From Curtobacterium sp. BH-2-1-1 (lineage in GTDB: Bacteria > Actinomycetota > Actinomycetes > Actinomycetales > Microbacteriaceae): 64,000 bases of DNA. A model generated the notes under the pieces. That model saw only the letters and a program-made list of their open reading frames with translations, was not told the DNA's origin and did not search any database. Made by a program: the position numbers and the translations under genes. This document shows, piece after piece, positions 25,562-55,419 of this stretch (the stretch's first letter is position 1; each line of letters begins with the position of its first letter). Where the stretch lies: contig NZ_CP017580.1 in assembly GCF_001806325.1 (NCBI RefSeq), forward strand, positions 992,001 through 1,056,000, given 5' to 3'.

Positions 25562-26078
25562 GGCCTTCCGTTTCAGACAAGGAAGCAGTAACCCCCAACG
25601 GGCACGCGCTGCTCCGAAGATTCCGACTGCCTGACTGGCAGCACCCGGGCGGAGTCTCTACCCATCCGGCTGTTTCCGACCGTACGGCTGGTCGCGTCCA
25701 GCAGCCTGCTCCCAACGGGGACAGGTCACCCTCGCGACGCGCGTCCTTCGCACCGGGGCTTGTCGCCCCGTCATTGCCGGTCGAACGCCGAATTACGAGG
25801 GAGTCGCGGGGTGTGCTTCAGATCGCGAGCTGCGTGCCACCCATCTTCGTTTCCGCGGACACTCCCCTCTGGGCACTCATCTTGCTTTCCGAGCTGACGG
25901 GAGTCCCGCAAGGGCCGTCGGTCCTCGGGCCGCAGCTCGGCGCCTCCGCCCGAAACACGGCGACCTCGCGCCAACTGATTACCGCTGACCGTCGTCCCAG
26001 CCGAAAGTCATCGACTGAGCGCACGTCGCGCCGCCCGAGGCCAACTACGCGAGCGTTCTCGTGCCCGTGAGCCTGCAC
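25562..26078. other. 517-base region without a convincing gene
   Basis: Upstream region of the flavodoxin gene. It contains the operator-like element at 25707-25723. Open frames here lack normal codon bias and recognisable motifs; I see no RNA gene. Confidence 0.5.
25707..25723. promoter_or_regulatory. TGTCCC-type operator upstream of the flavodoxin gene
   Basis: TGCTCC-CAACG-GGGACA: right arm perfect, left arm 5 of 6 to the shared TGTCCC-N5-GGGACA consensus. Confidence 0.55.
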
Positions 26079-26855
26079 TCACGACTCGCGAACCCCGCTC
26101 GAACGCTCGTCCGTGATCCCGGACGCAATTCCGTGTCGTCGGACCTCCAGAGCCGGCGCGATGTGCGCTGCATAACTTTCAGCGAGTGCGCGGTAGCTCG
26201 CCGAGGAACGGACCCGACCGTCCGGCGCCACAGGAATCTCGCTCCGCACCTGCGGAATGTAGATCAGGTTCTCGCCGTCTGCGCAGACGCGCGCACTTTC
26301 GGCGTTCAGGCGTTCGGCCCATCGGTCGACCAGACCGCCCCTTCGCAATGGTATTCGCGGAAGCGAGCTTGGCGCGGGAATCGCGGCGACGAAGATTGTC
26401 GACTGTGCGCGCTTCCCAAGAGGCACCGTCGCTGCCAGCTCAACCAGGTCGCGGCGCCATCGCGGAACGCTGCAAAGGCGGACGGCGTCTAACACGCCTG
26501 CCACCAGGACAACGGCGTCACACTCACCTGCGTCAGCGAGGCTCTCCATGGCGCAGATATTCCTCAAACGTCCGGAAGCGATCACCTGCGGATCAACCTC
26601 GACCCCGCGGGCCGTGCGGGCGTGGACAGCCCGCGCGATGAACCCGGCGAGACTCACGCTGTGACTTCGCACTCCCCATCCAGTTGCTGCGTCGGTACCC
26701 ACCAAGAGCAACCGCAACGGGCGCGGACCATCCACGACGACCGGATCCGCCCTGTCAGGGAGCGGCTGCCGGAGGTAGGAGTTTCGTGCTGGCCGCAGCA
26801 CCAGCGCCAGTGCCAACCCGAGGAACTGCATGCACCACACAACGCCTCCGCTCAC
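26079..26855 (-). CDS. SGNH/GDSL-like hydrolase with atypical nucleophile block
   Basis: 258 residues. After an N-terminal hydrophobic stretch (MQFLGLALALVL) the SGNH blocks are suggested by LLLVGTDAATGWGVRSHSVS (block I, where GDS is replaced by GTDA), VVLVAGVLDAVRL (block III region, where the usual GxND is absent) and a C-terminal D..S/H region. The canonical Ser nucleophile is therefore missing or shifted, so catalytic activity is doubtful. It stands alone, with an operator-like element 130 bases upstream. Confidence 0.6.
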   Translation of the reverse strand: MSGGVVWCMQFLGLALALVLRPARNSYLRQPLPDRADPVVVDGPRPLRLLLVGTDAATGWGVRSHSVSLAGFIARAVHARTARGVEVDPQVIASGRLRNICAMESLADAGECDAVVLVAGVLDAVRLCSVPRWRRDLVELAATVPLGKRAQSTIFVAAIPAPSSLPRIPLRRGGLVDRWAERLNAESARVCADGENLIYIPQVRSEIPVAPDGRVRSSASYRALAESYAAHIAPALEVRRHGIASGITDERSSGVRES

Positions 26856-26984
26856 AACGGTGCCTCGGCTGCCAACCTGCCGCGCCTTCTCGAGCTAACC
26901 GGATTCTGATCCGGCCGTCCGGTAATCATCGCGGCTCGCATCCCAGCGCGACACGATTCGCCTTTGGTCAGCACACCCGCTCAG

Positions 26985-27001
26985 TGTCCGTGACGGGGAC
27001 A
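26985..27001. promoter_or_regulatory. TGTCCC-type operator upstream of the SGNH-like gene
   Basis: TGTCCG-TGACG-GGGACA, 11 of 12 arm positions fit the shared consensus. It lies between the HxlR gene end and the SGNH-like gene start. Confidence 0.55.
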
Positions 27002-27055
27002 CGCTTCGCTGCACGATTCATCCGACGATCGAGGGCCCCAAGCCGGAAGGAGTCG

Positions 27056-27433: not shown

Positions 27434-27441
27434 AACAAAAC

Positions 27442-27550
27442 GGTAACCCCAGAGCGCACAACCAGCAAGTGTTCAGTTCCTTTCGGTAACCGTGTTCGAC
27501 CAGGGAATTCCTGGTTACCCGCGGGTAACCAGGAGCCCTTGCGGGTAACC
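27442..27550. promoter_or_regulatory. HxlR operator cluster (GGTAACC repeats)
   Basis: GGTAACC occurs at 27442, 27485, 27524 and 27544, and its complement at 27513. The copies at 27513 and 27524 form a perfect 24-base palindrome (27510-27533; half CCTGGTTACCCG). One half-site is 9 bases from the HxlR start and one is 14 bases from the MDR start, so both promoters are covered. Confidence 0.8.
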
Positions 27551-27564
27551 ACGACCCCGGGTGC

Positions 27565-28602: not shown

Positions 28603-28640
28603 GACCCGCCCACCATCAATAACAAACAAGGGAAAAGATC

Positions 28641-29773: not shown

Positions 29774-29785
29774 ATCGAGGAAATC

Positions 29786-30079: not shown

Positions 30080-30081
30080 TC

Positions 30082-32311: not shown

Positions 32312-33193
32312 TTAGGCGGCGGTGGCCGCGGTCAGGAAGTTGTTGACGATGGCTGCCGCCTCGTCTGGGTACTGGAAAATCGACGCGTGAGCTGCGTCCG
32401 GGAAAATGTGCAGACGTGCGTTCGGGATGAGTCCTGCGAGGGTGTGGCTGCCAGGCGTCCGGATCATCAGGTCGTCATCGCCTTGCAGAACAAGCGTCGG
32501 CTGCTGGATGCCGGTCAGCCGTTCGAGTTTCGATAGGTCCGGCACACCCCAGGCGAGCACAGCGTCGTACTGGGCATCGCGAACAGTAGGAGTCGTCGGA
32601 GTATCACGGTCCTGGGCGCGGGCACCCAGTCGACGGAGGAACTCGACACCACGAGCTCGGCTCGTGTCGGTGTGCGCAAAGAAGATGTACAGCAGGCTCT
32701 CCGCGGTGGGTGCGTCGTGGCGGGACTCGCGCTCGATGTCTTCTCTCCAGCCATGCATCGTCGGGGCACCAGCAGGGCCAGTCCCGGCGAGGACGAGCCT
32801 GCGGACCGCCCACGGCCGGAGAAGTGCAAGGTCCTGAGCGACGAACCCGCCGAGCGAGAACCCAAAGACGTCGAAGCGTCGGAGACGGAGCGCGTCGGTG
32901 AAGGCGAGGAGGTCGGTCGCCATCTGCGCAACCGTCGAAGGGACGGTGCCCGTGGACGCTCCGACGCCGGCATTGTCAACGAGGATCACCTCGCGCTGGG
33001 CGGCGAGGGGGTCGATCAGAGCGGGATCCCAATTGTCAAGGTTGCCGCGGAAGTGCATCAGAAAGACGAGGGGCACTCCGTCGGTGCTGCTCCCAAATCG
33101 CCGGTACGCGTATGTCGTGCCGTTCGCCGCGGTCACGGTCCTGTTGGACGCGGTTGCCGCGGTGTGATCCGCGGTGGTTGCCGTGTTGGTCAT
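32312..33193 (-). CDS. Alpha/beta hydrolase
   Basis: 293 residues from an ATG with AAGGAG 7 bases upstream. The motifs are VFLMHFRGNLDNWDP, DNAGVGAST, the nucleophile elbow FGFSLGGFVAQ, the acid in LQGDDDLMIRTPG and the His of FPDAAHASIFQ. It has a 20-residue Thr/Ala-rich N-terminal extension. It is the first gene of the leftward operon ending at 30135, with an operator-like TGCTCC-N5-GGGACA 78 bases upstream. Confidence 0.9.
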   Translation of the reverse strand: MTNTATTADHTAATASNRTVTAANGTTYAYRRFGSSTDGVPLVFLMHFRGNLDNWDPALIDPLAAQREVILVDNAGVGASTGTVPSTVAQMATDLLAFTDALRLRRFDVFGFSLGGFVAQDLALLRPWAVRRLVLAGTGPAGAPTMHGWREDIERESRHDAPTAESLLYIFFAHTDTSRARGVEFLRRLGARAQDRDTPTTPTVRDAQYDAVLAWGVPDLSKLERLTGIQQPTLVLQGDDDLMIRTPGSHTLAGLIPNARLHIFPDAAHASIFQYPDEAAAIVNNFLTAATAA

Positions 33194-33270: not shown

Positions 33271-33287
33271 TGCTCCTCCGAGGGACA
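33271..33287. promoter_or_regulatory. TGTCCC-type operator upstream of the hydrolase/SDR operon
   Basis: TGCTCC-TCCGA-GGGACA, 11 of 12 arm positions, flanked by CG on both sides, 78 bases upstream of the start at 33193. Confidence 0.6.
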
Positions 33288-34888: not shown

Positions 34889-35126
34889 CGGTTCACCCCG
34901 AAGCTGTCCGTGATGAGGTCACGCGTGAACGAGTGCCGTCTGCCTAGCCTCTCCACATGCCTAGTAGCCGTCGCGATCCGTCTGGTACGAGCCAGCCTCC
35001 GACCACCGGTCTGGCCTCCATCCCGCTGGCACGGATTCTTGCCGACCCGGTCCTCGCAAGTGCAGACTCGAATGCGGTAGCACCCGCAGACGGCCTTCAC
35101 TGATCCGTCCGAAGTCTCCCGCAACA

Positions 35127-35648
35127 TCACAACTCCGCCAGAACTTCGGGGACCGAAGCGCCGAGTGCGATGAGCAGCTGCGCAAATTCCCGGTCCAGGC
35201 GGTGAGCCACGGCGGTGATGCGCCCGTCTCCGAAGGACCCGAACGACGCACTCGGGACGTCTGCGGTCAACAAAACCGGCTCCCCTGGACGCTGCGAGAT
35301 GGTGACGCGGAACGGTGCCAGACCCATCACTCGCGGATCAAAGCGGTACATACGTTCCGCGACGACGTGATTCCCCACCAGATACGAAACGCACGACGAC
35401 TGGTGCCCGGCGATAGCCATCAACGCGGTCGGTTCGTTTCGCCAATACCTGATGAAACCGTGCGGTGCGTGCTGCTCCGTCCAGGTCTCGACTGTGTCCC
35501 AGTCGCGGTGCTTGGCGATGGCGTCAGCCAGACTCTGCTGGTCGAGCGCCGGTACGGCAGCCTCGAACGCCCCAACGACGCTAACAAACGGACTCGCCAT
35601 GGGTATCGAGAAGCGGTCGGCCGTGTACTCGGTGATCTGGGTGTGCAT
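35127..35648 (-). CDS. DUF302-like protein
   Basis: 173 residues. The segment SSCVSYLVGNHVVAERMYRF, APFRVTISQ, TADVPSASFGSFG and the closing VAHRLDREFAQLLIAL follow the order of the DUF302 fold (YxVGNP..A..M, APLRVLI, YDxPS). There is no export signal. It is encoded before the GlcG-like gene on the same strand, with a hairpin between them. The function of DUF302 is unknown. Confidence 0.7.
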   Translation of the reverse strand: MHTQITEYTADRFSIPMASPFVSVVGAFEAAVPALDQQSLADAIAKHRDWDTVETWTEQHAPHGFIRYWRNEPTALMAIAGHQSSCVSYLVGNHVVAERMYRFDPRVMGLAPFRVTISQRPGEPVLLTADVPSASFGSFGDGRITAVAHRLDREFAQLLIALGASVPEVLAEL

Positions 35649-35684
35649 GCCGGGAACCTAAGATGACCGCCCCTAAACAAGCGT

Positions 35685-35718
35685 GTCCCCGCCCGGGCTA
35701 CTTAATCCGGGCGGGGAC
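35685..35718. terminator. Hairpin after the GlcG-like gene
   Basis: GTCCCCGCCCGG pairs with CCGGGCGGGGAC around a 10-base A/T-rich loop, 10 bases past the GlcG-like stop (minus strand). Its left arm overlaps a weak TGTCCC-type motif 36 bases upstream of the DUF302 gene. Confidence 0.7.
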
Positions 35719-35728
35719 GACATCTTGC

Positions 35729-36133
35729 TCAGAGGGCCGCGACAGCCGCTTCGGCGATGACCACGTCCTGGTCCGGGGACCCGCCGCTGGATCCGACAGC
35801 GCCGATGACTGCGCCATCGGCGCTGGTCACAGGGATACCACCGGCGACGAACGTGAGCGGTTCGTGGCTGGCCGCCCCGAGCGTGTAGAGCGGCGCGCCC
35901 GGCTGAACCGCACCAGCCAGGTCACCCGACGCAGCCCCGAACGACACCGCCGTACGCGCCTTCGCAGCGCTTGCATCTACGGACACAAGGGGCGCGCCGT
36001 CCTGGCGAGCAACTGCGACGACGCGAGCGCCGCGGTCGAGGACGGTGATGGTCGACGGCACGCCAATATCGGATGCCTTCGCCTCTGCAGCGGCGATCGC
36101 AGCGTGGGCCTGAGTGAGTGTGATGTCGGTCAT
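35729..36133 (-). CDS. GlcG/HbpS-family protein (second copy)
   Basis: 134 residues with GAAAGGAAG before the ATG. It matches the copy at 28641-29048 through ITVLDRGARVV, ARQDGAPLVSVDASAAKART and GGIPVTSADGAVIGAVGSSG. Like that copy it lacks a signal peptide. It is divergent from the haloperoxidase-like gene at 36342, and two TGTCCC-type elements lie in the shared 208-base intergenic region. Confidence 0.9.
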   Translation of the reverse strand: MTDITLTQAHAAIAAAEAKASDIGVPSTITVLDRGARVVAVARQDGAPLVSVDASAAKARTAVSFGAASGDLAGAVQPGAPLYTLGAASHEPLTFVAGGIPVTSADGAVIGAVGSSGGSPDQDVVIAEAAVAAL

Positions 36134-36194: not shown

Positions 36195-36211
36195 TGTCCC
36201 CGCCCGGGTCA
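36195..36211. promoter_or_regulatory. TGTCCC-type operator between divergent GlcG-like and haloperoxidase-like genes
   Basis: TGTCCC-CGCCC-GGGTCA (11 of 12 arm positions). A second, weaker copy is at 36243-36259 (TGGTCC-CGGCG-GGGACA). A small inverted repeat TAGAC...GTCTA lies between them. Confidence 0.55.
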
Positions 36212-36341
36212 CCCGTGGCCGGGCTAGACGTCCCCGTCTAAGTGGTCCCGGCGGGGACACGCCCCCCTCCGGCGCCACTCGTACCGTCGGCATCACCGCC
36301 GACGTTTGTCCGGCACTCGACTACCACGCAAGGAGCCCGCA

Positions 36342-37160
36342 ATGCCCACGTTCACCACCCCCGACGGCATCGAGATGTACTGGACCGAGCAGGGCGAAGG
36401 ACAGCCCATCGTCTTCGCACACGGCTGGCCGCTCAGCTCCGACGCCTGGCAGCCCGAGCTGAAGTTCTTCAGCGACAAGGGCTACCGCGCCATCGCGCAC
36501 GACCGCCGAGGCCACGGCCGCTCCGAGAAGACCGCGGTCGGCCACACCATCGACCAGTACGCGAAGGACCTCGCAGCGCTCATCGAGCACCTCGACCTGC
36601 ACGACGTCATCGTCTTCGGTCACTCCACCGGTGGCGGCGAAGTGGTTCGCTACGCCGCGAAGTATGCCAACGGTCGAGTCGCGAAGGTGATCACCGCGGG
36701 CGCAATCCCGCCGATCATGGTCAAGACCGACAGCAACCCTGACGGCTCACCGATCGAGGTCTTCGACGGCATCCGCGCCGGCGTTCTCGAGGACGCCTCG
36801 CAGTTCTGGCTCGACCTTTCCGAAAGCTTCTTCGGCGCCAACCATGGCCGCGATGTTTCCTACGGCGCGAAGCTCGACTTCTGGCGTCAGGGACAGAACG
36901 TGAACCTCTCGGCCGCCTACGACTGCGTCAAGGCGTTCTCTGAGACGGACCAGACCGAGGACCTGAAGTCGCTCACCGTACCGATCCTCATCAACCACGG
37001 CGAAGACGACCAGATCGTGCCGATCGACGACGCGGCACGGAAGTCCATCGAGCTCGTCGCCGATGGGACGCTCAAGACCTACCCGGGCGCTCCGCACGGC
37101 ATCCACGGCGACTACCGCAAGGTCCTGCAGCAGGACGTTCTCGCCTGGATCAAGGGCTGA
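36342..37160 (+). CDS. Alpha/beta hydrolase, non-heme haloperoxidase-like (second copy)
   Basis: 272 residues; AAGGAG precedes the ATG. The motifs are FAHGWPLSSDAW, DRRGHGRSEK, the nucleophile GHSTGGG, NHGEDDQIVPIDD and the His of GAPHGIHGDYR. It is homologous to the protein at 3173-4009 along its length. It lies upstream of the TDT-MFS fusion gene, but a hairpin at 37179-37212 separates them. Likely a peracid-forming or ester-cleaving enzyme. Confidence 0.92.
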   Translation: MPTFTTPDGIEMYWTEQGEGQPIVFAHGWPLSSDAWQPELKFFSDKGYRAIAHDRRGHGRSEKTAVGHTIDQYAKDLAALIEHLDLHDVIVFGHSTGGGEVVRYAAKYANGRVAKVITAGAIPPIMVKTDSNPDGSPIEVFDGIRAGVLEDASQFWLDLSESFFGANHGRDVSYGAKLDFWRQGQNVNLSAAYDCVKAFSETDQTEDLKSLTVPILINHGEDDQIVPIDDAARKSIELVADGTLKTYPGAPHGIHGDYRKVLQQDVLAWIKG

Positions 37161-37212: not shown

Positions 37213-37285
37213 GTGCGATACCGGATCAGCCGGAATGTTGCACCGTCCTGGCAAGTTACAAGCCCATCCAACGCAGGAGGTATCG

Positions 37286-40424: not shown

Positions 40425-40583
40425 TCACAACGACGGGACGAAGAAGTCGCCGTACGAAGGGTCGTCCGGAATGGAACGCTCGCCTACCATCATCGCGATC
40501 TCATTCGGTGACCGGAGCCCCCGCCGACGCCACTGTTCCGGGTCCGCCCGGAGCACCGCCCAGACAGCGCGCAAGGGGTTCAT
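40425..40583 (-). CDS. 52-residue micro-protein (second of a coupled pair)
   Basis: Starts at ATG 40583, which overlaps the stop of the upstream micro-gene (ATGA). The product contains MNPLRAVWAVLRADPEQWRR, RSPNEIAMMVGERSIP and a DDPSYGDFFVPSL end. Codon bias is normal. A terminator follows the stop directly. No family recognised. Confidence 0.6.
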   Translation of the reverse strand: MNPLRAVWAVLRADPEQWRRRGLRSPNEIAMMVGERSIPDDPSYGDFFVPSL

Positions 40584-40708
40584 CGCTCGGTCTCCGGTCG
40601 CTCAGCAAGCCACGGCGTGATCGGGAGCAGCAGGGTCTGCATAGCCGACGAGGCGACGCCGGACCCGACATGCAAAGCCGCCGGCAGCGGCGGGTAAGAA
40701 TTTGTCAT
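40580..40708 (-). CDS. 42-residue micro-protein (first of a coupled pair)
   Basis: Starts at ATG 40708 with a strong GAGGAG site 7 bases upstream. The product reads MTNSYPPLPAALHVGSGVAS, then SAMQTLLLPITPWLAERPE. It is hydrophobic in the middle but too short for a clear membrane helix. Translational overlap with the 52-residue gene suggests the two proteins act together. No family recognised. Confidence 0.6.
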   Translation of the reverse strand: MTNSYPPLPAALHVGSGVASSAMQTLLLPITPWLAERPETER

Positions 40709-40935
40709 TGCGAGCTCCTCTATTCCATCTGATCTTGGGGTCGCTGAGAACGCTACGGGCGGCCTGTAGCTGGCACGTGTTCCCCCGAGGACCATCTCCC
40801 CCGCAGGAACACGCGGGGGCGAAAGTGTCCCCGGCGGAGTCACGCGAACCGAGCCGACGCTCGATACCGTCCCCTCGAGAGCGAATTACGCCTCTGTTGG
40901 TGGGATCACCGACCACGATCGCTGGAGGAAATGCC

Positions 40936-41973
40936 ATGACCACCACCGCCCCTAACAGCAGCGCCAATCGGAACATCCCCACAATGACACGGGCGTTCCT
41001 CGCACAGGGCGGACGCTCGATCCGCGACGAAGACGCTTTCCTCGCGCAGGAAGTTCCCCTCCCGCAGCTTGGCCCTCGCGATCTGCTCGTGCGCATCGAA
41101 GCGGTGTCGGTGAACCCCGTTGACACAAAAAGTCGACAGGGGCTCCGTTCCGGTACAAGACAGCTCGGCTGGGACGCGTCGGGAACAGTGGAGGCCGTCG
41201 GGGAGCAGGTCACTCGCTTCGCTGCAGGCGACGCGGTCTGGTACGCCGGCGCGCTCAACCGCCCCGGAACGAACGCAGAACTTCACACCGTCGACGAACG
41301 TCTTGTCGGTCGTCGGCCGACTACTCTCGACCACGCTGAGGCGGCCGCACTGCCCCTCACCGGTATCACCGCCTGGGAAACCCTCTTCGAACGTTTCCGG
41401 CTCACATCAGATAGCGCGGGCACGCTGCTCGTCGTCGGAGCGCCCGGCGGTGTCGGCTCCGTGCTCATTCAGCTCGCGAAGGCACGAACCGCGCTCACGG
41501 TCATCGGTACAGCCGGCCGCGCGGAAAGCCAACAGTGGGTTACCAAGATGGGCGCGGACCACGTGGTGGACCATCACGATCTCGTGCGAGGCGTCCGGTC
41601 CGTGGCGCCCGACGGCGTCGATTTCGTCTTCACTGCCCACTCCGCCAACAACGTTGCCGCCTTCGCCGACATCGTCCGGCCGTTCGGCGAGATCACTGCC
41701 ATCGACGACCCGCGCGGGCTGGACTTGTACCCGCTGAAGCGCAAGTCGATCGCCTGGCACTGGGAGCTGATGTTCACCCGGTCTGCGTACGGCACGCCAG
41801 ACATGGGCGCGCAAGGAAAGCTGCTTGACGCATTGGCGGACCTGGTAGACGCCGGTCAGGTCCGATCCACCGCGACTTCGATTGTGCGGGGATTCGACGC
41901 AGCAGGCCTCCGCGAGGCGCACCGGCAGGTCGCCGACGGAACGGCGATTGGGAAGGTCGTCGTCGCTCGCTGA
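40936..41973 (+). CDS. Zinc-free MDR / NADPH:quinone-oxidoreductase-like protein (second copy)
   Basis: 345 residues from ATG 40936, with GGAGG 7 bases upstream. It parallels the protein at 27565-28602: EAVSVNPVDTKSRQG, LGWDASGTVEAVGEQVT, ALPLTGITAWETLFERF, VVGAPGGVGSVLIQLA, SIAWHWELMFTRS. No zinc cysteines. The leader (40778-40842) carries two degenerate TGTCCC-type motifs. It is convergent with an HTH-less MmyB-domain gene. Confidence 0.9.
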   Translation: MTTTAPNSSANRNIPTMTRAFLAQGGRSIRDEDAFLAQEVPLPQLGPRDLLVRIEAVSVNPVDTKSRQGLRSGTRQLGWDASGTVEAVGEQVTRFAAGDAVWYAGALNRPGTNAELHTVDERLVGRRPTTLDHAEAAALPLTGITAWETLFERFRLTSDSAGTLLVVGAPGGVGSVLIQLAKARTALTVIGTAGRAESQQWVTKMGADHVVDHHDLVRGVRSVAPDGVDFVFTAHSANNVAAFADIVRPFGEITAIDDPRGLDLYPLKRKSIAWHWELMFTRSAYGTPDMGAQGKLLDALADLVDAGQVRSTATSIVRGFDAAGLREAHRQVADGTAIGKVVVAR

Positions 41974-42015: not shown

Positions 42016-42546
42016 TCAGTCGGCCAAAGTACTGGCGAGCAAACGCAACGTTTCCGCAGACTCGTCATCCGCGCCAGACCACAGCAGCAGGGTGTCACCA
42101 TCCGGCCCCGGAACCGCAAAACGATGGTAGGCGAGCACGAGGTGACCGACAGAGGGCACCGCGAACCCGACCACACCGTTGGGTTGCGACCCATCGGCGT
42201 TCGCCCAGAACTGCGCAAACGCCGAGCTCTGCGCAGCGAGTTCTCCGACCAACGCAATGTATTCGCGATCTTCTTGGTGCTCGTCCAGTGCCCGCCTCAG
42301 CTCGCCGGCGAGTCTGGCCCCGATCGGAGCGGTACCAGCCGGGTCAACCGGTGTGTCGCGTTCCGGTTCAAGGAACGTCGACCGCGCGAGGTTTGCACCG
42401 GCGCGGAACGTCGGATGAACAGCCTTCGCAAGCCGATTCGCCACCTGGACGGTCAAGTGGCGGTCATAGACGACAGCCGGCACGGCCGTCCAGGGAAGGA
42501 TCAACCTCCCGAGCAGTGTTCTCCGGTCGTCGGCTCCGTCGTCCAT
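42016..42546 (-). CDS. Stand-alone MmyB-like ligand-binding domain protein (no HTH)
   Basis: 176 residues from ATG 42546; GTG 42576 would add ten. The sequence matches only the C-terminal sensor half of MmyB-type XRE regulators: WTAVPAVVYDRHLTVQVANR (compare VPAFVMNQYRDVLAVNRLA in the regulator at 60246), FRAGANLARSTFLEPE, LVGELAAQSSAFAQFWANAD and VGHLVLAYHRFAVPG. The usual 90-residue N-terminal helix-turn-helix is absent. It is divergent from a full-length regulator (42729), and a perfect TGTCCC-N5-GGGACA site lies between them. It could be a decoy or partner that titrates ligand or heterodimerises. Confidence 0.8.
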   Translation of the reverse strand: MDDGADDRRTLLGRLILPWTAVPAVVYDRHLTVQVANRLAKAVHPTFRAGANLARSTFLEPERDTPVDPAGTAPIGARLAGELRRALDEHQEDREYIALVGELAAQSSAFAQFWANADGSQPNGVVGFAVPSVGHLVLAYHRFAVPGPDGDTLLLWSGADDESAETLRLLASTLAD

Positions 42547-42587
42547 GCTCACGAACGGAGAGTATGGCCGCGCCACGAACCGTATCG

Positions 42588-42604
42588 TGTCCCCGACAGG
42601 GACA
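42588..42604. promoter_or_regulatory. Perfect TGTCCC-N5-GGGACA operator
   Basis: TGTCCC-CGACA-GGGACA lies in the divergent region between the HTH-less MmyB protein and the full MmyB-type regulator. Confidence 0.7.
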
Positions 42605-42728: not shown

Positions 42729-43580
42729 ATGTCCACTCCGCACACATTTCTCGGTGAGTACCTCCGCGCGCGCCGCTCGCTCGTTCAGCCAGAGGACTTC
42801 GGAATCGTCTCCGTGCGCGCCCGACGCGTCCCCGGTCTTCGGCGAAGCGAGGTCGCGAACTTGGCCGGCATCAGCCCGGAGTACTACCTCCGGCTCGAGC
42901 AAGGCCGCGACCGTCATCCCTCTCATCAGGTGCTCGCTGCCCTCGTGCGCGCGTTGCACCTCAACGCCGCGGCGCTCGAGCACATGCACCGGCTAGCTCG
43001 ACTCGATGCCGCTGACCTGAACGCCGCAGCCGTCATCGCCTCAAAGGATATTGAGCCGGGGCTGACTGAACTCGTTGACGGCCTGACGGACGTCCCGGCG
43101 CTGCTCATGAGCGCAGAGCAAGACGTCCTCGCAGCGAACCGCTTAGCCCGAACGATTCGACCGAATCTTCTACCGGGCAGGAACTTCTTGCTTGAGCACT
43201 TCACGGACAGAGCCCGGGCGGAGAGCATCGAATGGGACGCCGACGCCCGGCGAGCGGTTGCAAACCTCCGGTTCCACGGAGACCCTCGGAGCTCTCGCTT
43301 CCGGGAAGTGGTCGGCACGTTGGCGGTGCGGGACGACACATTCCGCCAACTTTGGGCTCGTCACGACGTTGAGCAGCAAGTGGTTTGGGGCGCTCGGCTC
43401 CGGTTGGGTTCGGAGGGCGACGTTGAGCTCATCTGCCATTCGCTGCCTGTGCCTGGAGGCAGCGGTCGAGCGCTCCTGACCTTGACGGCCGAGCCGGGGA
43501 GCGCCGCCGCGCAGTCGCTCCGGAAGTTCACGGCCCAAGAAGACTGCGATGAGGGAACAAGTGAGGAAAAAGTGGCTTGA
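42729..43580 (+). CDS. XRE-family regulator with MmyB-like ligand-binding domain
   Basis: 283 residues. The N-terminal helix-turn-helix has the group signature LGEYLRARRSLVQPEDFG, RRVPGLRRSEVANLAGIS and EYYLRLEQGRDRHPSHQVL. The sensor half follows: DVPALLMSAEQDVLAANRLA, FREVVGTLAVRDDTFRQLWA and the closing LTLTAEPGSAAAQSLR. MmyB-type domains are PAS-like and bind fatty-acid-type ligands in a solved example. It is divergent from the orphan sensor domain at 42016 and probably acts at the site 42588-42604. Confidence 0.93.
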   Translation: MSTPHTFLGEYLRARRSLVQPEDFGIVSVRARRVPGLRRSEVANLAGISPEYYLRLEQGRDRHPSHQVLAALVRALHLNAAALEHMHRLARLDAADLNAAAVIASKDIEPGLTELVDGLTDVPALLMSAEQDVLAANRLARTIRPNLLPGRNFLLEHFTDRARAESIEWDADARRAVANLRFHGDPRSSRFREVVGTLAVRDDTFRQLWARHDVEQQVVWGARLRLGSEGDVELICHSLPVPGGSGRALLTLTAEPGSAAAQSLRKFTAQEDCDEGTSEEKVA

Positions 43581-46374: not shown

Positions 46375-47709
46375 TCAACCCCGCAGAGCGGGCGCTTCTC
46401 TTCTCATGTTGAGCACTGCTGGCAGTAGCGCAGACACCACGATCAACCCGCCGCAGGCAGCACCGGCGAAGGTGAGTACGCCCAACGGGAACACCGGCCT
46501 GCTGGCTGGGTAAGTCCCGACGAGCGCCACCCACTCGGCTACGACGGCAAGTCCAACCGTTGCCGCTGCCGTCAGCACACCCGTCACGCTAATGATCAAT
46601 CCCTCGAACGCCGCGACGAGAAGCGGAAGACCCGGCGATGCGCCGACCGCTCGAAGCTGTTCGCCCTCGCGTGCTCGGTCTCTCGCTGTCATCGCTGCGG
46701 TCGCCGCCGCCCCGATCGCCGCCAGCAATATCGGACCGCTGAGGAGCAGCGCCGTTGCTCCGGCGCTGCTCTCGCCGGGCGCGCCACCCTGCATTGCGGT
46801 TACGGCCGTGCGCTGTCCCCCAATCAAGGCCGTCGGAAGTCCAACAGCGATCAACAACGCTGCCAGCGTGGTGTCGCTCCTGGACGTCGACCATCGCGTA
46901 GATGCTCTCGCCAAGCTGAACCCCACCGATGTCCGTTCAGGCACCAGAGCGGTCCACAGGCGGACGACAGTCCCGGCCACGGTCCGGCCGAGGACAGCGA
47001 CCGCAGCCACCAACAGCGGACCGATCAGCAACGCTGGTGCCGCACCGTCAGCAACCGACCGGGGCAGCCCCGACAGCATCGCCAACGCCAGCGCCGTCAG
47101 CAGACCCGCGACGATGACGCGTACAACAATTGACTTACGTCTCTCCGGCGCCGCGCGCAGCACGATCAGTGGCGAGACGGCGGCGGCGCGACGGCTGCCT
47201 GGCACCGCACCCAGAATCGCAGCCACGAGGGTGAGACAGACGACTGCGATTGCTTCCCACCAAGATCCGGCAATCCGGACGCCCCGAAGGCCAGACGCTC
47301 CGGTCAGAGACTCCGAAACCAACGCCGGGACGAAGGCCGTCGCGGTGACAGCACCTACGATCGCTCCGACGGCGGCAACAACGGTCGTCTCCGTGAGCAT
47401 CGTTGCCCGCACCCCGCGCGGGGTAACCCCCGCAAGCTGCCACAACGCGTACGTCCGTTCGAGGAGCGCGGTGGTGAGCCGGACGACCGCAGAAACGACG
47501 ACCAAGACCGCGATGAGACCAAACGCCGCCGTTGTTCCCGAAATGGACAGCAACGCCACCCCTTGGAGTCCCGGAGTTCGCAACCCTCCCACGATGAGAA
47601 CGCCGGGCACCGAACCCGCGACTGCAGCGACAGCGCATACAACGAACAGTCCGGCCCACACCCGCCACGAAGACCTCAGGTCCGCTGCCGCGAGCCGCGC
47701 GATGATCAT
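46375..47709 (-). CDS. FtsX-like ABC transporter permease (short form)
   Basis: 444 residues with about eight membrane helices in two sets of four (residues 20-125 and 220-430). The FtsX repeat motifs are YALWQLAGVTPRGVRATMLT and REGEQLRAVGASPGLPLLVA. Usual two-repeat permeases of the MacB/antimicrobial-peptide type are 650-850 residues with large external domains; here the extracytoplasmic loops are minimal. The start overlaps the ATPase stop by 4 bases, so the two form one transporter for peptides or lipids. Confidence 0.88.
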   Translation of the reverse strand: MIIARLAAADLRSSWRVWAGLFVVCAVAAVAGSVPGVLIVGGLRTPGLQGVALLSISGTTAAFGLIAVLVVVSAVVRLTTALLERTYALWQLAGVTPRGVRATMLTETTVVAAVGAIVGAVTATAFVPALVSESLTGASGLRGVRIAGSWWEAIAVVCLTLVAAILGAVPGSRRAAAVSPLIVLRAAPERRKSIVVRVIVAGLLTALALAMLSGLPRSVADGAAPALLIGPLLVAAVAVLGRTVAGTVVRLWTALVPERTSVGFSLARASTRWSTSRSDTTLAALLIAVGLPTALIGGQRTAVTAMQGGAPGESSAGATALLLSGPILLAAIGAAATAAMTARDRAREGEQLRAVGASPGLPLLVAAFEGLIISVTGVLTAAATVGLAVVAEWVALVGTYPASRPVFPLGVLTFAGAACGGLIVVSALLPAVLNMRREAPALRG

Positions 47710-48455
47710 GCCGGCGCCGCCGCGCGTTCGACCGCGGTGAAGAGCGCCTCGGCGTCCGGGTGGTGCAGCTCGGCGTGCACCTTCCCGTCCCGGAGCACGA
47801 GCGCGCGGTCGGCCCGAGCAGCGGCCGCGAGATCATGCGTGACCATCACCACCGCGCGGTCCCCTGCGGCACGATCGCGAAGAAGGCTCAGCACGCCCGC
47901 ACCAGCGACCGAGTCAAGAGCGCCCGTCGGCTCGTCAGCGAAAACAACTTCCGGCTCAACAACCAACGTTCGCGCGATCGCGACTCGCTGCTGCTGCCCA
48001 CCGGACAACTCATCGGGCCGACGATGCGCCACATCGAGAAGACCGACGGCCGCCAACGCGTCGTCCACTGTCTTTCGATCTGCCCGTCGGCGAGCAAGTC
48101 GCGCCGGCAGCGAGACGTTCTCACGCGCGGTCAGCGCCGGAAGAAGGTTGTACGACTGGAACACGAAGCCCACTCGTCCGCGACGGTGGCGTGCTGAACG
48201 CTGAGGCGAGAGCCCCCGCATGTTCACCCCGTCGATCATCACTGAACCCCGAAGGGGCGTTTCAAGACCGGACAGGCAGGCCAGGAGCGTCGACTTTCCC
48301 GAACCGCTGGGGCCGACCACCGCCAACATCTCCCCGCGGAGAACGTCAACCGAGATGCCACGGAGAACCGGCACCGCCGTGCGTCCCGGGCCGGGGTACG
48401 CATGCTCGAGGTCAAGAGCCCGCACGATTGGCTGGTTTTCCGCATCTGTCCGCAC
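47706..48455 (-). CDS. ABC transporter ATP-binding protein (MacB/LolD type)
   Basis: 249 residues from GTG 48455. Walker A is GPSGSGKST, the Q-loop is FVFQSYNLLPAL, the signature LSGGQQQRVAIARTL, Walker B VVFADEPTG, and the D- and H-loops ALDS and VMVTHD. It energises the FtsX-like permease that overlaps it. An 11-of-12 operator-like TGTTCC-N5-GGGACA lies 36 bases upstream of the start, consistent with control by an MmyB-type regulator. Confidence 0.94.
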   Translation of the reverse strand: MRTDAENQPIVRALDLEHAYPGPGRTAVPVLRGISVDVLRGEMLAVVGPSGSGKSTLLACLSGLETPLRGSVMIDGVNMRGLSPQRSARHRRGRVGFVFQSYNLLPALTARENVSLPARLARRRADRKTVDDALAAVGLLDVAHRRPDELSGGQQQRVAIARTLVVEPEVVFADEPTGALDSVAGAGVLSLLRDRAAGDRAVVMVTHDLAAAARADRALVLRDGKVHAELHHPDAEALFTAVERAAAPA

Positions 48456-48490: not shown

Positions 48491-48507
48491 TGTTCCTTGT
48501 TGGGACA
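48491..48507. promoter_or_regulatory. TGTCCC-type operator upstream of the ABC transporter
   Basis: TGTTCC-TTGTT-GGGACA, 11 of 12 arm positions, in the 61-base gap between the NB-ARC regulator and the ABC genes. Confidence 0.6.
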
Positions 48508-50733: not shown

Positions 50734-50805
50734 GGCTTCCTCAATTCCTGCCTGCGTTCTGCATGGTGCCGAGGTCCGGCTCCTGATGGGCTGACGTTCG
50801 ACATC

Positions 50806-50832
50806 ATGCAGCATCAACGGCGCGCGCTGCAT
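50806..50832. promoter_or_regulatory. Inverted repeat in the divergent regulator-regulator promoter
   Basis: ATGCAGC and GCTGCAT are separated by 13 bases between the NB-ARC gene (minus) and the MmyB-type gene (plus). A possible operator, different from the TGTCCC class. Confidence 0.35.
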
Positions 50833-50855
50833 CGGACCACCAGAGAAGAGCCGAT

Positions 50856-51815
50856 ATGCCTATCACGCGGACACCGCTCGGTGAGTACCTGCGCGCACGA
50901 AGAGCGTTGGTGCGACCGGAGGACGTCGGAATCCTCTCCCTCACCCCCCGCCGTGTTGCGGGACTGCGACGAGACGAAGTGGCACGGCGAGCCGGAATCA
51001 GTCAGGAGTACTACCTCCGTCTTGAGCAAGGTAGGGATCGCCAGCCCTCCGACCAGGTCCTGCAAGCGCTGGGCCGCGCCCTTGAACTGGCTCCGTCGGC
51101 CGTTCAACACATGCAGCGGATCGTCCGAATTCAGACAGGGGAAGCTCCTGCTGAGGCAATTGACAACGCCGCACGCGTACTCCCGACCCTCAGCAGCTTG
51201 TTGGATCAGTGGACGGGAACGCCGGCATACATCATGGACGGCAATCAAGACGTTCTGATCGTGAATCCGTTGGCGAGAGCAATGACGGCAGGTGCGCTCA
51301 AGCCGGGTGTGAACCTGCCGCTCTCGGTGTTCTCTGACGGAGGCCGCGCTTCGCTGAAGAACTGGCCGGAGGTGGCGTCCAGAACTGCAGCCACCCTCCG
51401 GTACGGCAGCGATCCGAGAGACCGTCGACTACAAGAGATCGTTGGCTCTCTCGCCGTTCGGGACGAGCAATTCCGGCAGCTCTGGTCCCGACACGATGCG
51501 CACCCCTACCTCAACGGCACAGTTGAGCAGATGGTCCAGGGCTACGGCCAAGTCTCGCTCATCTGCCAGACGCTCGAAGTCCCAGGCTCGAGGCGTTTCG
51601 TCTTGACCGCATTCCACGCGACTGCCGAATCTGACGGCGCCAACGCGCTCGCAAACCTCCGTCGGGAAGTCGACGCAACAGGCCTCGACGGCGGCTCTCA
51701 GCCGGATGACGAGCGAAAATCTCGTACGCTATCGGACGCTGCAATCACGCCGGACGTTGGTTCCCTTGGACCGATCACTGAGCACTTCCGCCGAGAACGT
51801 CTAGTAAGTCGGTGA
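50856..51815 (+). CDS. XRE-family regulator with MmyB-like ligand-binding domain
   Basis: 319 residues. Signature parts are LGEYLRARRALVRPEDVGIL, RRVAGLRRDEVARRAGIS and EYYLRLEQGRDRQPSDQVLQ, then the sensor TGTPAYIMDGNQDVLIVNPL and LQEIVGSLAVRDEQFRQLWS. It has an extra C-terminal tail of about 40 residues after the sensor domain. Its 3' end overlaps the end of the convergent NB-ARC gene by 41 bases (51775-51815), so the tail may be a late extension. Confidence 0.92.
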   Translation: MPITRTPLGEYLRARRALVRPEDVGILSLTPRRVAGLRRDEVARRAGISQEYYLRLEQGRDRQPSDQVLQALGRALELAPSAVQHMQRIVRIQTGEAPAEAIDNAARVLPTLSSLLDQWTGTPAYIMDGNQDVLIVNPLARAMTAGALKPGVNLPLSVFSDGGRASLKNWPEVASRTAATLRYGSDPRDRRLQEIVGSLAVRDEQFRQLWSRHDAHPYLNGTVEQMVQGYGQVSLICQTLEVPGSRRFVLTAFHATAESDGANALANLRREVDATGLDGGSQPDDERKSRTLSDAAITPDVGSLGPITEHFRRERLVSR

Positions 51816-53979
51816 GGTCGCGTTGCAGAGCGTCGAGACGAGCGGGGAGCGAGCGCACCGGGATCGATTGCAGGGCGCGCTCCACGTCAGCGAGCGCTTC
51901 CCCGCTCCGACCCAACGCAATCAGCGCCACAGCGCGCGCTCGAAGGAGCAGCGCCAGCGAAGTCCCCGTGTCCCCAGGCAGCGTCCCGAGGCCGACGTCA
52001 AGAACATCAAGCGCCTCCCGAGGCTCGCCGGCTTCGAGCAGCGAGATTGCAAGCTCAGCTCGTGCAAGAGCCTGCGCATATCGCACGCGGTCATCGACGG
52101 GGTCGAGCCCGGTCACGAGTCCTTCGACCGTTGCCCGCAGCGCAGCCACAGACTCGGTGCGCCGCCCCTGGGCGCGCAACACAAGCCCGAGCATCCCAAG
52201 GGCCTGATGGAGGAAAACGGGATCGTCTTCGGCTTCGAACCCCGTTACGGCCGCCAGGGCGTGCGCCTCTGCACCGTTCGGCTCCGCCTGCTCCAGAAGC
52301 GCCCACGCGACGTGGTAGTGGCCCCAAGCTATAAGGTCCGATGCGCCGGATCGTTCGGCGGCGGAAAGCGCCTCGTGGGCGTGATGCGATGCGAGCGCAT
52401 GGTCAGCCCGTTCGATGTGTGCAGCCCATGCAAGGTGCCCGGCGATTCTTGAGCGCTCGGCATCATCATCCGTGGCTTCTGCAGATTGCTGCGCGAGCAA
52501 ATCAAGCTCGTACCACCGCCCCCAATCTGGCCAAAGGTTTGCGAACCATTGCAGGACGGAGGTCAGCGTGAGAACCGTGTCATGTCGACCGGTCGAGGCC
52601 GCACGCTGAAACGCCGGCCACCAGTGGTCGACTTCGTCGACGATCCAGGCTCGCGCTTCGTCTTGGTCGTCATAGGGCCGCGCCACCGGTGCTCGTCCGG
52701 GAACCACGAAGGCGGACGCTGCAAGGAGAAGTCGGCTCAGCAACCAGCTCGTAAGGCGGTCACGAGCCGTCGACTCCGCTACCGGATCTTCCTGCAATCG
52801 TCCAAGCGCGAACAACCTGATGATGTCGTGAATACGGTACCGATCAGCGCCCCGAGGTTCGGCAAGACCGAGGTCGACAAGCGTTTCCAGATGTTGCTCA
52901 ACGATCGCGGGGTCGCTGCCGAGCGCAGCTGCAACCGTGTCAGGTCCGAAAGTAACGCCGTCAAGTACTGCGGTCACCCTGAAGACCGCAGCGGTATCCG
53001 GGTCCAGGTCGTCGTACGACACTGCGATTGTCGCCGACATCGAGACGTCACCCGCAACCAGCAACGCTAGTCTGCGATCCGGCGACCGAAGGCGGGAGAC
53101 AAGGTCAGCGACGCTGGTCGCTGGCCGACTGGCAACGCGGTTCGCGGCAACTCGAAGCGCAAGTGGGAATCCGTCGCAGATCGAGACCAATTCTGCAACG
53201 GCGCCCTCCTCCCGCTGTTCATATGGGATCGCTCGCTCGACAATTCGTGCTCCGTCCTCAGCATCGAGGACATTGAGCACGATCCGCTTAGCGTCGAGGC
53301 CGGCGAGTGGGCGCCGGGAAGTGGCGACGATCGATGTGCGCCCCTCGACCATCACCGGGCGCACCTGGTCCTCATCCGACACGTTGTCCAGGTGCACCAT
53401 GACGCGCTCCTGGCTGCTCAATTCGATCCACCGTGCGCGGGCAGCGGCGAGTGTGCCTGGTGGGTCACCGGAGTCGCACTGCCGCAAAACGCGTTGCAGA
53501 ACTTCAAGCGCGGTGCTGGACGGGCGACCGTGCCCGCCGAGGTCGACGAAGACTCGCCGGGCGGCGTCCGCGGAGGTACCAAACGCCTCCGTCACCAACG
53601 TCGTTTTCCCGATGCCTGGAGGTCCGGAGACCACGATCAGCGGTGACTCGGTCGCGTGGTCAAGCGCGCGAACAAGTCTGGCTAGCTCGGTGCTTCGACC
53701 AACGAAGTCAGAGACCCTGGGCGGTCGGAAGTCGGCCCGAGCAGCGTCCAGAGGCGCTCTGAGCAACGGCGCGCGCAACCACCGTCGACCATCGTCATCC
53801 AAGTGCAGGCCGTCCATGAGCGCTTGTAGCGTTCGGGGCTGCGGATGGATGCTCTTCCCCCGCTCGATGTCGCTGATCCCGCGAACGCTCACGCCCGAGC
53901 GTTCAGCGAGGGTCTCAAGCGTCAATCCGGCGCCGAGACGCAGGGTACGAAGTCGCGCTGCGAGATCTAGGTCGCTCAC
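51775..53979 (-). CDS. HTH-NB-ARC-TPR (STAND) transcriptional regulator (second copy)
   Basis: 734 residues from GTG 53979, preceded by GGGAGGAG. The helix-turn-helix is LRTLRLGAGLTLETLAERSG with VRGISDIERGK. The ATPase has DFVGRSTELARLV, Walker A SGPPGIGKTTLV, Walker B RVMVHLDNVSD, the sensor IVATSRRPLAGLD and the IHDIIRLFALGRL end. TPR-like helices fill the rest. It is homologous to 48517-50733, for example in the W-rich LQWFANLWPDWGRWYEL block. It lies downstream of the SRPBCC-MBL gene on the same strand with 42 bases between. Confidence 0.92.
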   Translation of the reverse strand: MSDLDLAARLRTLRLGAGLTLETLAERSGVSVRGISDIERGKSIHPQPRTLQALMDGLHLDDDGRRWLRAPLLRAPLDAARADFRPPRVSDFVGRSTELARLVRALDHATESPLIVVSGPPGIGKTTLVTEAFGTSADAARRVFVDLGGHGRPSSTALEVLQRVLRQCDSGDPPGTLAAARARWIELSSQERVMVHLDNVSDEDQVRPVMVEGRTSIVATSRRPLAGLDAKRIVLNVLDAEDGARIVERAIPYEQREEGAVAELVSICDGFPLALRVAANRVASRPATSVADLVSRLRSPDRRLALLVAGDVSMSATIAVSYDDLDPDTAAVFRVTAVLDGVTFGPDTVAAALGSDPAIVEQHLETLVDLGLAEPRGADRYRIHDIIRLFALGRLQEDPVAESTARDRLTSWLLSRLLLAASAFVVPGRAPVARPYDDQDEARAWIVDEVDHWWPAFQRAASTGRHDTVLTLTSVLQWFANLWPDWGRWYELDLLAQQSAEATDDDAERSRIAGHLAWAAHIERADHALASHHAHEALSAAERSGASDLIAWGHYHVAWALLEQAEPNGAEAHALAAVTGFEAEDDPVFLHQALGMLGLVLRAQGRRTESVAALRATVEGLVTGLDPVDDRVRYAQALARAELAISLLEAGEPREALDVLDVGLGTLPGDTGTSLALLLRARAVALIALGRSGEALADVERALQSIPVRSLPARLDALQRDLTDLLDVLGGSAQ

Positions 53980-54021
53980 GCCGCTCCTCCCGGTCGGCAA
54001 CAGCGTAATCCGAAGGGGGCG

Positions 54022-55353
54022 TTACTCGGAAACGTCGCGTTCGTTCTCGTTACGTTGCGGGAGCAGGTCGGGATAGTCAGCCGGGGCGAGGGTTCTACTG
54101 CCGACGAACTCTGCGACAGCTGATGCCTCAAGCGTCGAACGGTTGCCGTGGTTCGGCCAGCGACGGACCATCTCCTCTACGAACGAAACCGCGTCGGAGG
54201 CAGACGCCAGCACCTCGTCGAATTCACGTAGGTATCTCCGGTGTTCCTCCACTTGTGGCAGCGCTGCGTCCGAGTCGGCATCCGGGTCGCGGTGGCTAGC
54301 GATTACCCATGCGGGGCGAAGCGCTTCCACGAGGTCAAGTGCTCGCGACCACCGCTGCCGAGCGGCTCGGTCTGTGCCGATCAGCCAAGGATGTACGCGG
54401 TTGTAAACGAGGTCGCCACCAATCATCGCGTCGAGGTGGCGGACCGACACGACGCTGGTGGGTCGCTCACCAATGAGCCCGACGTCGAACAGTTGAAGAG
54501 TGTGCCCCTCGAGGTCAAGACTCCCGGCTGGGAGCGGGGAGGGCGCTGTCACGGTCGTCGGCAACTTGCCGGGAAAGAGTGTCTCCCACCGCGGCTTGAG
54601 GACGGATTGTGTCTGCGCTTGAGCGTATTGCGCGACGTCGGTCACGGCGGTAGCGATCACGTCGGGAAAAGCTCGGAGCACCTGGTCCAAGCCGAAGAAG
54701 TGGTCGGCCTGACCCTGGGTGATGATGACCGCCCTGAGGCGCTTCCCGCTTGTGCGGATCCATTCGACCAGCTGGTCGCCTTCTTCAGCAGTCATCAGCG
54801 CGTCGATGAGGACCGCGTCGCGTTGACCGGCGACCAGCGTCGCCGTAGTCGGAGACCACGTGGCGGCTGCACCGCCGTCAAGTCCTGCCCTTGCGATTGT
54901 GCGGTACTTGCCGCGCCAGACATCCATCGTCAGCGGCGAGAGCACAGTTCCGCCGGCGCTTCGCAGGCGTTGAGCCAACCACTGTTGAAGGCGTTCACGC
55001 TCAGAGGCAGAGCGGTTGCCCACGCTTTGGGTGCTCCACGTCACCACGCTGCCCTCGCCCTCCTGCGACACACGTACGACAGCGTCCAAGTCGTCGAACG
55101 TTGAGCCACCGGGAACACGGGCCCGGTACGCAGCCAAGCCGTCCTCTGACCGGCGTCGCTCTTCGACGACGCCAAGGTCCGCAGGTGCGCGCCGGATCCA
55201 CCGGCTCGAACCTGCGGCAAGCATTTCAGTGCTGGCACCCGAACCGCCGTGAGCGTTCGCGAAGTCGTCGAACAGTGGCCACACCGCTGTCGGTGACGCG
55301 TCGAAGCGAGCCGCGACCGTGGCGTGCGCTCGACGTACCGGTGATAGCTGCAC
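54022..55353 (-). CDS. SRPBCC domain fused to a metallo-beta-lactamase fold with degenerate zinc motif
   Basis: 443 residues from GTG 55353, with GGAGGGAG upstream. Residues 1-135 resemble a START/SRPBCC ligand-binding fold (HATVAARFDASPTAVWPLFD to GSVVTWSTQS). Residues 165-400 are an MBL fold (VLIDALMTAEEGDQLVEWIR, DAMIGGDLVYNRVHPWL, AWVIASHRDPDAD). The canonical HxHxDH is replaced by TQGQADHFFG, so two metal-ligand histidines are Gln. It either binds one metal or works differently. It is divergent from an MmyB-type regulator, with a perfect operator between them. Confidence 0.85.
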   Translation of the reverse strand: MQLSPVRRAHATVAARFDASPTAVWPLFDDFANAHGGSGASTEMLAAGSSRWIRRAPADLGVVEERRRSEDGLAAYRARVPGGSTFDDLDAVVRVSQEGEGSVVTWSTQSVGNRSASERERLQQWLAQRLRSAGGTVLSPLTMDVWRGKYRTIARAGLDGGAAATWSPTTATLVAGQRDAVLIDALMTAEEGDQLVEWIRTSGKRLRAVIITQGQADHFFGLDQVLRAFPDVIATAVTDVAQYAQAQTQSVLKPRWETLFPGKLPTTVTAPSPLPAGSLDLEGHTLQLFDVGLIGERPTSVVSVRHLDAMIGGDLVYNRVHPWLIGTDRAARQRWSRALDLVEALRPAWVIASHRDPDADSDAALPQVEEHRRYLREFDEVLASASDAVSFVEEMVRRWPNHGNRSTLEASAVAEFVGSRTLAPADYPDLLPQRNENERDVSE

Positions 55354-55402
55354 GAGTCTCCCTCCGCTCCGCCGACCGTACGGACGATGCCCGACTCGAG
55401 GG

Positions 55403-55419
55403 TGTCCCTAACTGGGACA
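55403..55419. promoter_or_regulatory. Perfect TGTCCC-N5-GGGACA operator
   Basis: TGTCCC-TAACT-GGGACA, extended to GTGTCCC/GGGACAC, lies between the SRPBCC-MBL gene (50 bases from its start) and the MmyB-type regulator (84 bases from its start). Confidence 0.75.

Follow-up and report, generated by a model that had tools for sequence, protein, structure and literature searches.

A TGTCCC-N5-GGGACA box at a fixed distance from the -10 element: a predicted activator site for MmyB-type regulators in a Curtobacterium gene cluster

More than 1000 regulators, mostly from actinomycetes, make up the MmyB-type family, which is linked to antibiotic genes and to SDR/MDR genes (PMC3406030). The founding structure of the family is that of MltR (Caur_2278, PDB 3pxp) from Chloroflexus aurantiacus, a dimer whose recognition helices lie about one turn apart (PMC3406030). 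Pseudopalindromic "B-boxes" have already been proposed in print for MmyB (PMC3406030). The DNA targets of the family are obscure, and the accessible portions of the texts on it give no operator consensus. Here we describe a candidate operator, the inverted repeat TGTCCC-N5-GGGACA, in a stretch of 64,000 nucleotides from Curtobacterium sp. BH-2-1-1 (contig NZ_CP017580.1, positions 992,001 to 1,056,000), which we call the window. The window carries a gene cluster of redox enzymes, hydrolases, an ABC transporter and small open reading frames (ORFs), together with four MmyB-type genes (MmyB-A to MmyB-D). The repeat is probably the activator box of a cluster-specific regulon, bound by an MmyB-type regulator that works by class II activation.

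The repeat is real. The 3.80 Mb complete genome has two exact copies, both within the window, and none of a control pattern. With at most one mismatch there are eight places genome-wide, five of them in the window, which makes up 1.7% of the genome (binomial by hand, about 1e-7). With at most two mismatches the genome has 120 sites against 88 for the control pattern, and therefore the two-mismatch sites outside the window are mostly background. The window itself has 14 sites at this level, as compared with a mean of 3.73 and a largest value of 8 in 100 shuffles. Eleven of the 14 are intergenic and three are coding (29161, 47533, 49268), in a window with 14.8% intergenic DNA. In the gene list used for this count the MDR gene starts at about 40930 instead of 40702, so that 40795 and 40826 count as intergenic; if the longest MDR ORF is kept, nine sites are intergenic and five are coding. 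In the intergenic DNA of the window, TGTCCC with a spacer of 5 is the commonest 6-bp palindrome (five sites, runners-up four; at most one mismatch, all arms, spacers 0-12). Counting palindromes over the whole window was rejected as a test and intergenic DNA taken instead, because codon bias dominates once coding DNA is included, and palindromes such as TCGACG then exceed the TGTCCC palindrome in number. The three coding sites were dismissed as chance sites. A further sequence, TATCCCGATGTGGGACA at G000:C1:228666, lies outside the cluster and has identical copies in genomes G018, G431 and G434, perhaps through coding conservation.

The position of the sites relative to putative -10 elements suggests that they are oriented promoter elements, each working in one direction. 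In a first survey, 47 hand-picked intergenic cluster sites were read for 60 bp on both sides, with one site (L070/L072) counted twice. Of the 47, 42 have a TANNNT hexamer at 22 bp (25 sites) or 23 bp (17 sites) from one edge, and only 7 further TANNNT occur at all other distances. An unselected survey took all sites with at most two mismatches in 12 sequences, again with L070/L072 counted twice. It found TANNNT at 22 or 23 bp in 47 of 69 sites and in 0 of 12 sites of the reversed control pattern. The proportion was 7/7 for exact, 16/19 for one-mismatch and 24/43 for two-mismatch sites, and of the 56 TANNNT found up to 65 bp from a site, 47 stand at one of these two distances. The oriented consensus of 41 sites, selected for the -10, reads TGTCCC-N5-GGGACA-CGCT, about 17 bp, then C(g)TA(c/g)CGTC. 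A model built from the 31 of these that come from other sequences than the window recovered 12 window sites with at least 22 bits, and the reversed window had none with 10 or more. Site 26985 is among the 12, yet is without TANNNT. The model also supplied an extra site, 34905, with a -10 box that stops 7 nt short of the ATG of a 48-aa ORF. Site 40795 was dismissed as a chance site, as it overlaps the spacer of the 40778 site and has no -10 at 22 or 23 bp.

A sequence-only reading of the window had placed the motif at seven promoters, and all seven sites are present and intergenic. It gave every imperfect copy 11 matching arm bases of 12; this holds for 26985, 36195 and 48491, as does the perfect match at 42588 and 55403, but 25707 and 33271 reach only 10 of 12. 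Its weaker copies at 36243, 40778 and 40826 likewise have the -10 at the fixed distance, and it missed 35684 and 34905. It had also set the two perfect copies between an mmyB gene and its divergent partner. Their position is as described (42729 is divergent from 42016, and 55503 from 54022), and both copies face away from the mmyB gene and toward the partner. Two pairs of back-to-back genes have two boxes each (36195/36243 and 40778/40826), 48 bp apart within each pair.

In four window targets (34957, 35648, 42552 and 48455, by our own reading) the start codon lies 7 nt past the -10 box, which supports the -10 assignment and places the box centre near -43. At the -35 position the mean match to TTGACA is 1.46 of 6, against 2.12 of 6 in shuffled sequence. 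An operator centred near -43 without a good -35 would represent class II activator geometry, with start sites placed by sequence alone. The marks of this class found here are a fixed-distance site overlapping -35 and a weak -35 element.

The motif is conserved beyond this genome. A search with MmyB-A over 59 genomes, our own included, identified G019, which belongs to the same genus and has four mmyB genes within a single stretch. This stretch is collinear with window positions 27056-62827 for most genes, with 62-93% protein identity; 30891, 35127, 57249, 57830 and 58765 have no close counterpart in it. Motif sites are present in G019 in intergenic regions matching those of the window. The G019 genome has three exact copies, each of them in the cluster, and the single exact copy in G434 lies in the cluster locus. 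A search of named genomes with MmyB-C gave 10 loci, the nearest relatives being Curtobacterium. Five of these (L066-L070) hold close MmyB-C orthologs (67-84%), three from Curtobacterium, of which L067 is on the same contig as G018, and two from Promicromonospora. In each of the five, the MmyB-C match is preceded at 70-113 bp by a site with no more than two mismatches. With the window and G019 included, a site lies upstream of MmyB-C in 7/7 genomes, with the -10 facing away from MmyB-C in six, and an alignment of the seven promoters shows conserved arms amid otherwise diverged DNA. The earlier proposal of one regulon with one operator is therefore well supported, by cross-species conservation and by the fixed distance to the -10. 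Among 35 genomes of the genus, MmyB-A matches of at least 50% occur only in G019, G018 and G003 (partial) among the matches listed, and the cluster looks accessory. Third-position GC is about 0.67-0.87 from about 11000 to 64000 of the window, as compared with about 0.9 over a large part of the initial 9 kb, and this lower value is in keeping with an acquired region.

The MLTR_LBD domain (PF17765) is above cut-off in MmyB-A, MmyB-B, MmyB-C and 60246 (MmyB-D), and also in 42016, which is a ligand-binding domain (LBD) alone. The four full-length proteins have HTH_31/HTH_3 at the N-terminus, and 42016 has no helix-turn-helix (HTH). Other regulators of the cluster are a LuxR-LAL protein (43597), two XRE-NB-ARC-TPR proteins (48517 and 51775) and an HxlR protein (27056). 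The two XRE-NB-ARC-TPR genes, at 48517-50832 and 51775-54000 (-), flank MmyB-B; the two are again its neighbours on either side in L066 and L071, and one of them is in L073. The window scan found no TGTCCC site near MmyB-D. MmyB-C is the sole cluster regulator shared by the loci that bear the motif in five other genomes, and MmyB proteins were found in 4/4 genomes checked. This co-occurrence, together with a like box geometry at some unrelated mmyB genes, argues for an MmyB-type binder, as the sequence-only reading had proposed, with a motif that appears limited to the A/B/C clade. A Herbiconiux locus, L073, has no close MmyB-C ortholog and contains MmyB-B-like, LuxR-LAL and XRE-NB-ARC genes. 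A site just downstream of the MmyB-B-like gene faces an LBD-only gene there, and therefore the box appears to be a feature of the A/B/C clade and not of MmyB-C only.

At the other MmyB genes examined, TGTCCC sites are not the rule, which argues against one half-site throughout the family, and groups of like mmyB genes have conserved promoter elements of their own. Two sets were compared. The first had 60 loci, of which two were dropped (HTH not matched by the pattern) and four cluster genes were set apart, leaving 54. The second had 123 loci, of which 25 were dropped in the same way, leaving 98 regions, 14 of them from this genome and the others from a search across the phylum. Two genes are represented twice (L031 = L091 and L040 = L139). 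The arrangement TG-N13-CA-N22/23-TANNNT is found upstream of 14/54 non-cluster mmyB genes in the first set (shuffle mean 0.3, maximum 2, 200 shuffles), seven of which belong to a single group of similar genes. In the second set it is found upstream of 9/98 (shuffle mean 0.87, maximum 4), including L010, which resembles that group, and L200, which looks like chance.

When box width and spacing were varied, the top cells of the first set were 13x22 (8), 9x26 (7) and 13x23 (6). The 9x26 cell shares its start base with 13x22, and its matches are, by our own reading, TGGGAGC..CACACCC-type boxes in the same frame. The second set was highest at 13x22 (7), followed by 7x28, 13x28 and 16x28 with 5 each; the 16x28-type matches are largely GGTAC..GTACC boxes, several in the same frame. 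Palindromes of 6-N5-6 form with at least 5/6 pairs peak in the second set at offset 22 (8/98 regions, three of them, L140-L142, alike), as compared with 0-5 at the other 34 offsets (10-44). The first set has a slight peak, with three at 22, two at 23 and 0-2 elsewhere. The half-sites seen at other mmyB genes are GTGTAC, TGGGTG, TGGTCC, TGGGAG and TGGGAC, and their letters seem to go roughly with HTH sequence types, which provides a lead. At two mmyB genes of similar sequence on Streptomyces plasmids, TGGGTACGGCGCACCCA stands 23 bp ahead of TAGCCT, which fits the geometry. Most such boxes outside the cluster face the mmyB gene itself, whereas those in the window face neighbours. The motif does not appear to be a generic MmyB operator, and other MmyB groups show different half-sites or no visible ones. 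We consider it somewhat probable that MmyB regulators across Actinomycetota share a promoter grammar, in which a 17-bp 6-N5-6 box lies 22-23 bp before TANNNT, the half-site varies by clade (TGTCCC, TGGGAC, TGGTCC, TGGGAG/CACCCA, GTGTAC) and the gene is often leaderless. If this is true, the targets of more than 1000 mostly orphan regulators could be read from sequence, and in this cluster the box would also control an HTH-less MmyB partner and small ORFs.

From these features we infer MmyB binding, activation and ligand control in the cluster. An MmyB-type dimer would bind the 17-bp pseudopalindrome; MmyB-C is the likeliest candidate, and A and B possibly share the site. The half-site centres are 11 bp apart, which suits the recognition helices of MltR, about 34 A or about 10 bp apart (PMC3406030). 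The box would cover about -35 to -51 of a promoter with a TA(c/g)CGTC-type -10 and no proper -35. The bound regulator would contact RNA polymerase, presumably when its PAS-like domain holds a ligand. Each box would act in one direction, hence the two boxes between back-to-back genes.

Three points favour activation over repression: the phasing is fixed, the -35 is poor, and MmyB is a known activator that turns its target genes on (PMC3406030). It is improbable that MmyB-C (or A or B) acts by repression, blocking the -35 region until its ligand releases it. The box does adjoin that region, repression is common among XRE proteins, and the XRE regulator MsrR represses its divergent neighbour (PMC7532634); however, repression would allow a wider spread of -10 distances than is seen, and the TTGACA matches lie below the shuffled level. 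Another regulator of the cluster is quite unlikely to read the motif. The LuxR-LAL, XRE-NB-ARC-TPR and HxlR genes are all encoded there, two of them with an XRE-type HTH, and XRE-NB-ARC genes adjoin mmyB genes in several relatives. Nevertheless, for XRE-NB-ARC2 and for LuxR-LAL there is a motif-bearing genome without any match at E<=1e-20: G433 for XRE-NB-ARC2, which has only a partial 37% match in G432, and G431 for LuxR-LAL, which has 32-39% matches in G432 and G433. HxlR is in none of L066-L070, the search for it and for XRE-NB-ARC1 having covered the loci of about 20 kb only. The two Promicromonospora loci (about 20 kb each) have no LuxR-LAL, XRE-NB-ARC or HxlR homologs at E<=1e-10, and Pfam scans of 17/18 predicted ORFs in L068 and 17/18 in L069 gave no other common regulator. 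The same box geometry also occurs at mmyB genes outside the cluster.

Several observations weigh against an MmyB-bound activator box. Annotation covered only about 20 kb around each locus, so the element could be the target of an alternative sigma factor or of a regulator whose gene lies at another place in the genome, and TANCGTC resembles some -10 elements of extracytoplasmic function (ECF) sigma factors. We regard this as very unlikely, since exact sites are confined to the cluster in G000 and G019 and the dyad symmetry points to a dimer; the alternative sigma factor was set aside on spacing, the 22/23 bp gap being longer than usual sigma spacings. Five of the 47 picked sites have no -10 at 22 or 23 bp (26985 and 40795 in the window, 27815 in G019, 18406 and 22032 in G018), and the one at 22032 is the site upstream of the G018 MmyB-C. 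One of the two exact copies in G433 (P. citrea) is outside the locus, and a genome search found no exact motif in G018, G431, G432 or G435. The P. citrea locus L069 also holds LexA, NrdR and MerR-type genes. MmyB-B has no site directly upstream in the window scan, and 40/54 and 89/98 of the non-cluster mmyB genes have no TG-N13-CA box of this form. Finally, MmyB proteins with other half-sites in their promoters have recognition helices very similar to those of A/B/C, and therefore the helix alone does not explain the choice of half-site.

The predicted operators, regulators and targets are listed in the table; the box precedes no fewer than ten genes of the cluster. The regulon appears to include the redox enzyme and hydrolase cassettes of the sequence-only reading and, in addition, an ABC transporter, an HTH-less MmyB protein and small ORFs. 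Neither Pfam nor NCBIfam supported the SGNH call of that reading for 26079-26855. A protein search with 31564 (244 aa) gave no function; the names were hypothetical or uncharacterized, with one DUF3386 and one alpha/beta hydrolase. The small ORFs of 48, 42 and 52 aa under predicted operator control are possible precursor or signal peptides. The LBD-only protein 42016 has counterparts in G019, G018, L066, L070 and L073 (44-65%) and is perhaps a ligand buffer or heterodimer partner. A 223-aa MmyB-domain protein is described in S. lincolnensis (PMC10717218). At 37235-39451 (+) of the window, a SLAC1/TehA-like domain is fused to an MFS transporter; the SLAC1 part is separate in both Promicromonospora loci.

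Table. Predicted operators, MmyB-type regulators and predicted target genes in the window
Feature	Position	Strand	Remarks
Predicted operator, perfect 12/12	55403..55419	-	toward SRPBCC-MBL gene; -10 TACGGT 55380-55375
Predicted operator, perfect 12/12	42588..42604	-	toward LBD-only MmyB gene; -10 TACTCT 42564-42559
Predicted operator, 11/12	48491..48507	-	toward ABC transporter gene; -10 TAACCT 48467-48462; GTG 7 nt beyond (leaderless)
Predicted operator, 11/12	36195..36211	-	toward HbpS-like gene; -10 TAACGT 36172-36167
Predicted operator, 10/12	36243..36259	+	toward alpha/beta hydrolase gene; -10 TACCGT 36282-36287
Predicted operator, 10/12	33271..33287	-	toward alpha/beta hydrolase operon; -10 TAACGT 33248-33243
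Predicted operator, 10/12	25707..25723	-	toward flavodoxin/WrbA-like gene; -10 TACGGT 25684-25679
Predicted operator, 10/12	35684..35700	-	toward 173-aa gene; -10 TAGGTT 35660-35655; ATG 7 nt beyond
Predicted operator, weak	40778..40794	-	toward two small ORFs; -10 TAGCGT 40755-40750
Predicted operator, 10/12	40826..40842	+	toward MDR gene; -10 TACCGT 40865-40870
Operator predicted by leave-window-out model	34905..34921	+	-10 TAGCCT 34945-34950; leaderless small-ORF ATG 34957
Predicted operator, 11/12	26985..27001	.	no TANNNT at 22/23 on either side; G019 counterpart has minus-side TANNNT
MmyB-A, XRE HTH + MLTR_LBD	42729..43580	+	divergent from 42016
MmyB-B, XRE HTH + MLTR_LBD	50856..51815	+	
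MmyB-C, XRE HTH + MLTR_LBD; likeliest predicted binder	55503..56333	+	scanned as ORF 54891-56333
MmyB-D, fourth full MmyB	60246..61148	-	87% identical in G019
Predicted target: SRPBCC + metallo-beta-lactamase-fold (MBL) protein	54022..55353	-	divergent from MmyB-C
Predicted target: MmyB ligand-binding domain alone, no HTH	42016..42552	-	GTG 7 nt after -10 (own reading)
Predicted target: ABC transporter ATPase	47706..48455	-	domain scan
FtsX-like permease, 3' of ABC ATPase gene	46375..47709		sub-cut-off Pfam match
Predicted target: MDR oxidoreductase	40936..41973	+	likely ATG 40936 (own reading); scanned as ORF 40702-41973
Predicted target: alpha/beta hydrolase	36306..37160	+	
Predicted target: HbpS/GlcG-like protein	35729..36133	-	
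Predicted target: 173-aa protein, no family assigned	35127..35648	-	
Predicted target: alpha/beta hydrolase	32312..33193	-	then 244-aa gene 31564-32298
Predicted target: flavodoxin/WrbA-like protein	24938..25561	-	
Predicted target: 42-aa ORF	40580..40708	-	similar ORFs in G019 and L066
Predicted target: 52-aa ORF	40425..40583	-	similar ORFs in G019 and L070
Predicted target: leaderless 48-aa ORF	34957..35103	+	only short similar core in G019 (E 0.07)

With a box that is fixed in its position within the promoter, one can predict from the sequence which genes are controlled, in which direction and how the regulator acts; such a box also supplies defined fragments for binding assays and for a ligand search. 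The arrangement can be likened to lambda cI at PRM, where an XRE-fold dimer on a 17-bp operator that overlaps the -35 and is centred near -42 activates via sigma region 4. Unlike MmyB, lambda cI is a phage repressor without a ligand-binding PAS domain. A PDB sequence search with MmyB-C gave no relative at E<=0.001. Within the family, MltR differs in that the accessible text gives no operator for it (PMC3406030). The regulators described here are like MmyB of the methylenomycin cluster (SCP1, Streptomyces coelicolor) in combining an XRE HTH with a PAS-like domain; that protein is a gene-cluster activator with proposed pseudopalindromic boxes (PMC3406030). In the literature searched, in part as excerpts, there is no TGTCCC-N5-GGGACA operator for MmyB, and a partial earlier description is possible (O'Rourke et al. 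2009; tables of PMC12565409). The latter is a computational catalogue of XRE palindromes, with 223 motif clusters of operators upstream of XRE genes. Its main text, as far as accessible, prints neither TGTC nor GGGACA, and overlap with its tables is possible. In comparison with the operators of this catalogue, the boxes in the Curtobacterium cluster would mostly drive neighbouring genes, and their fixed spacing to the -10 is an added element.

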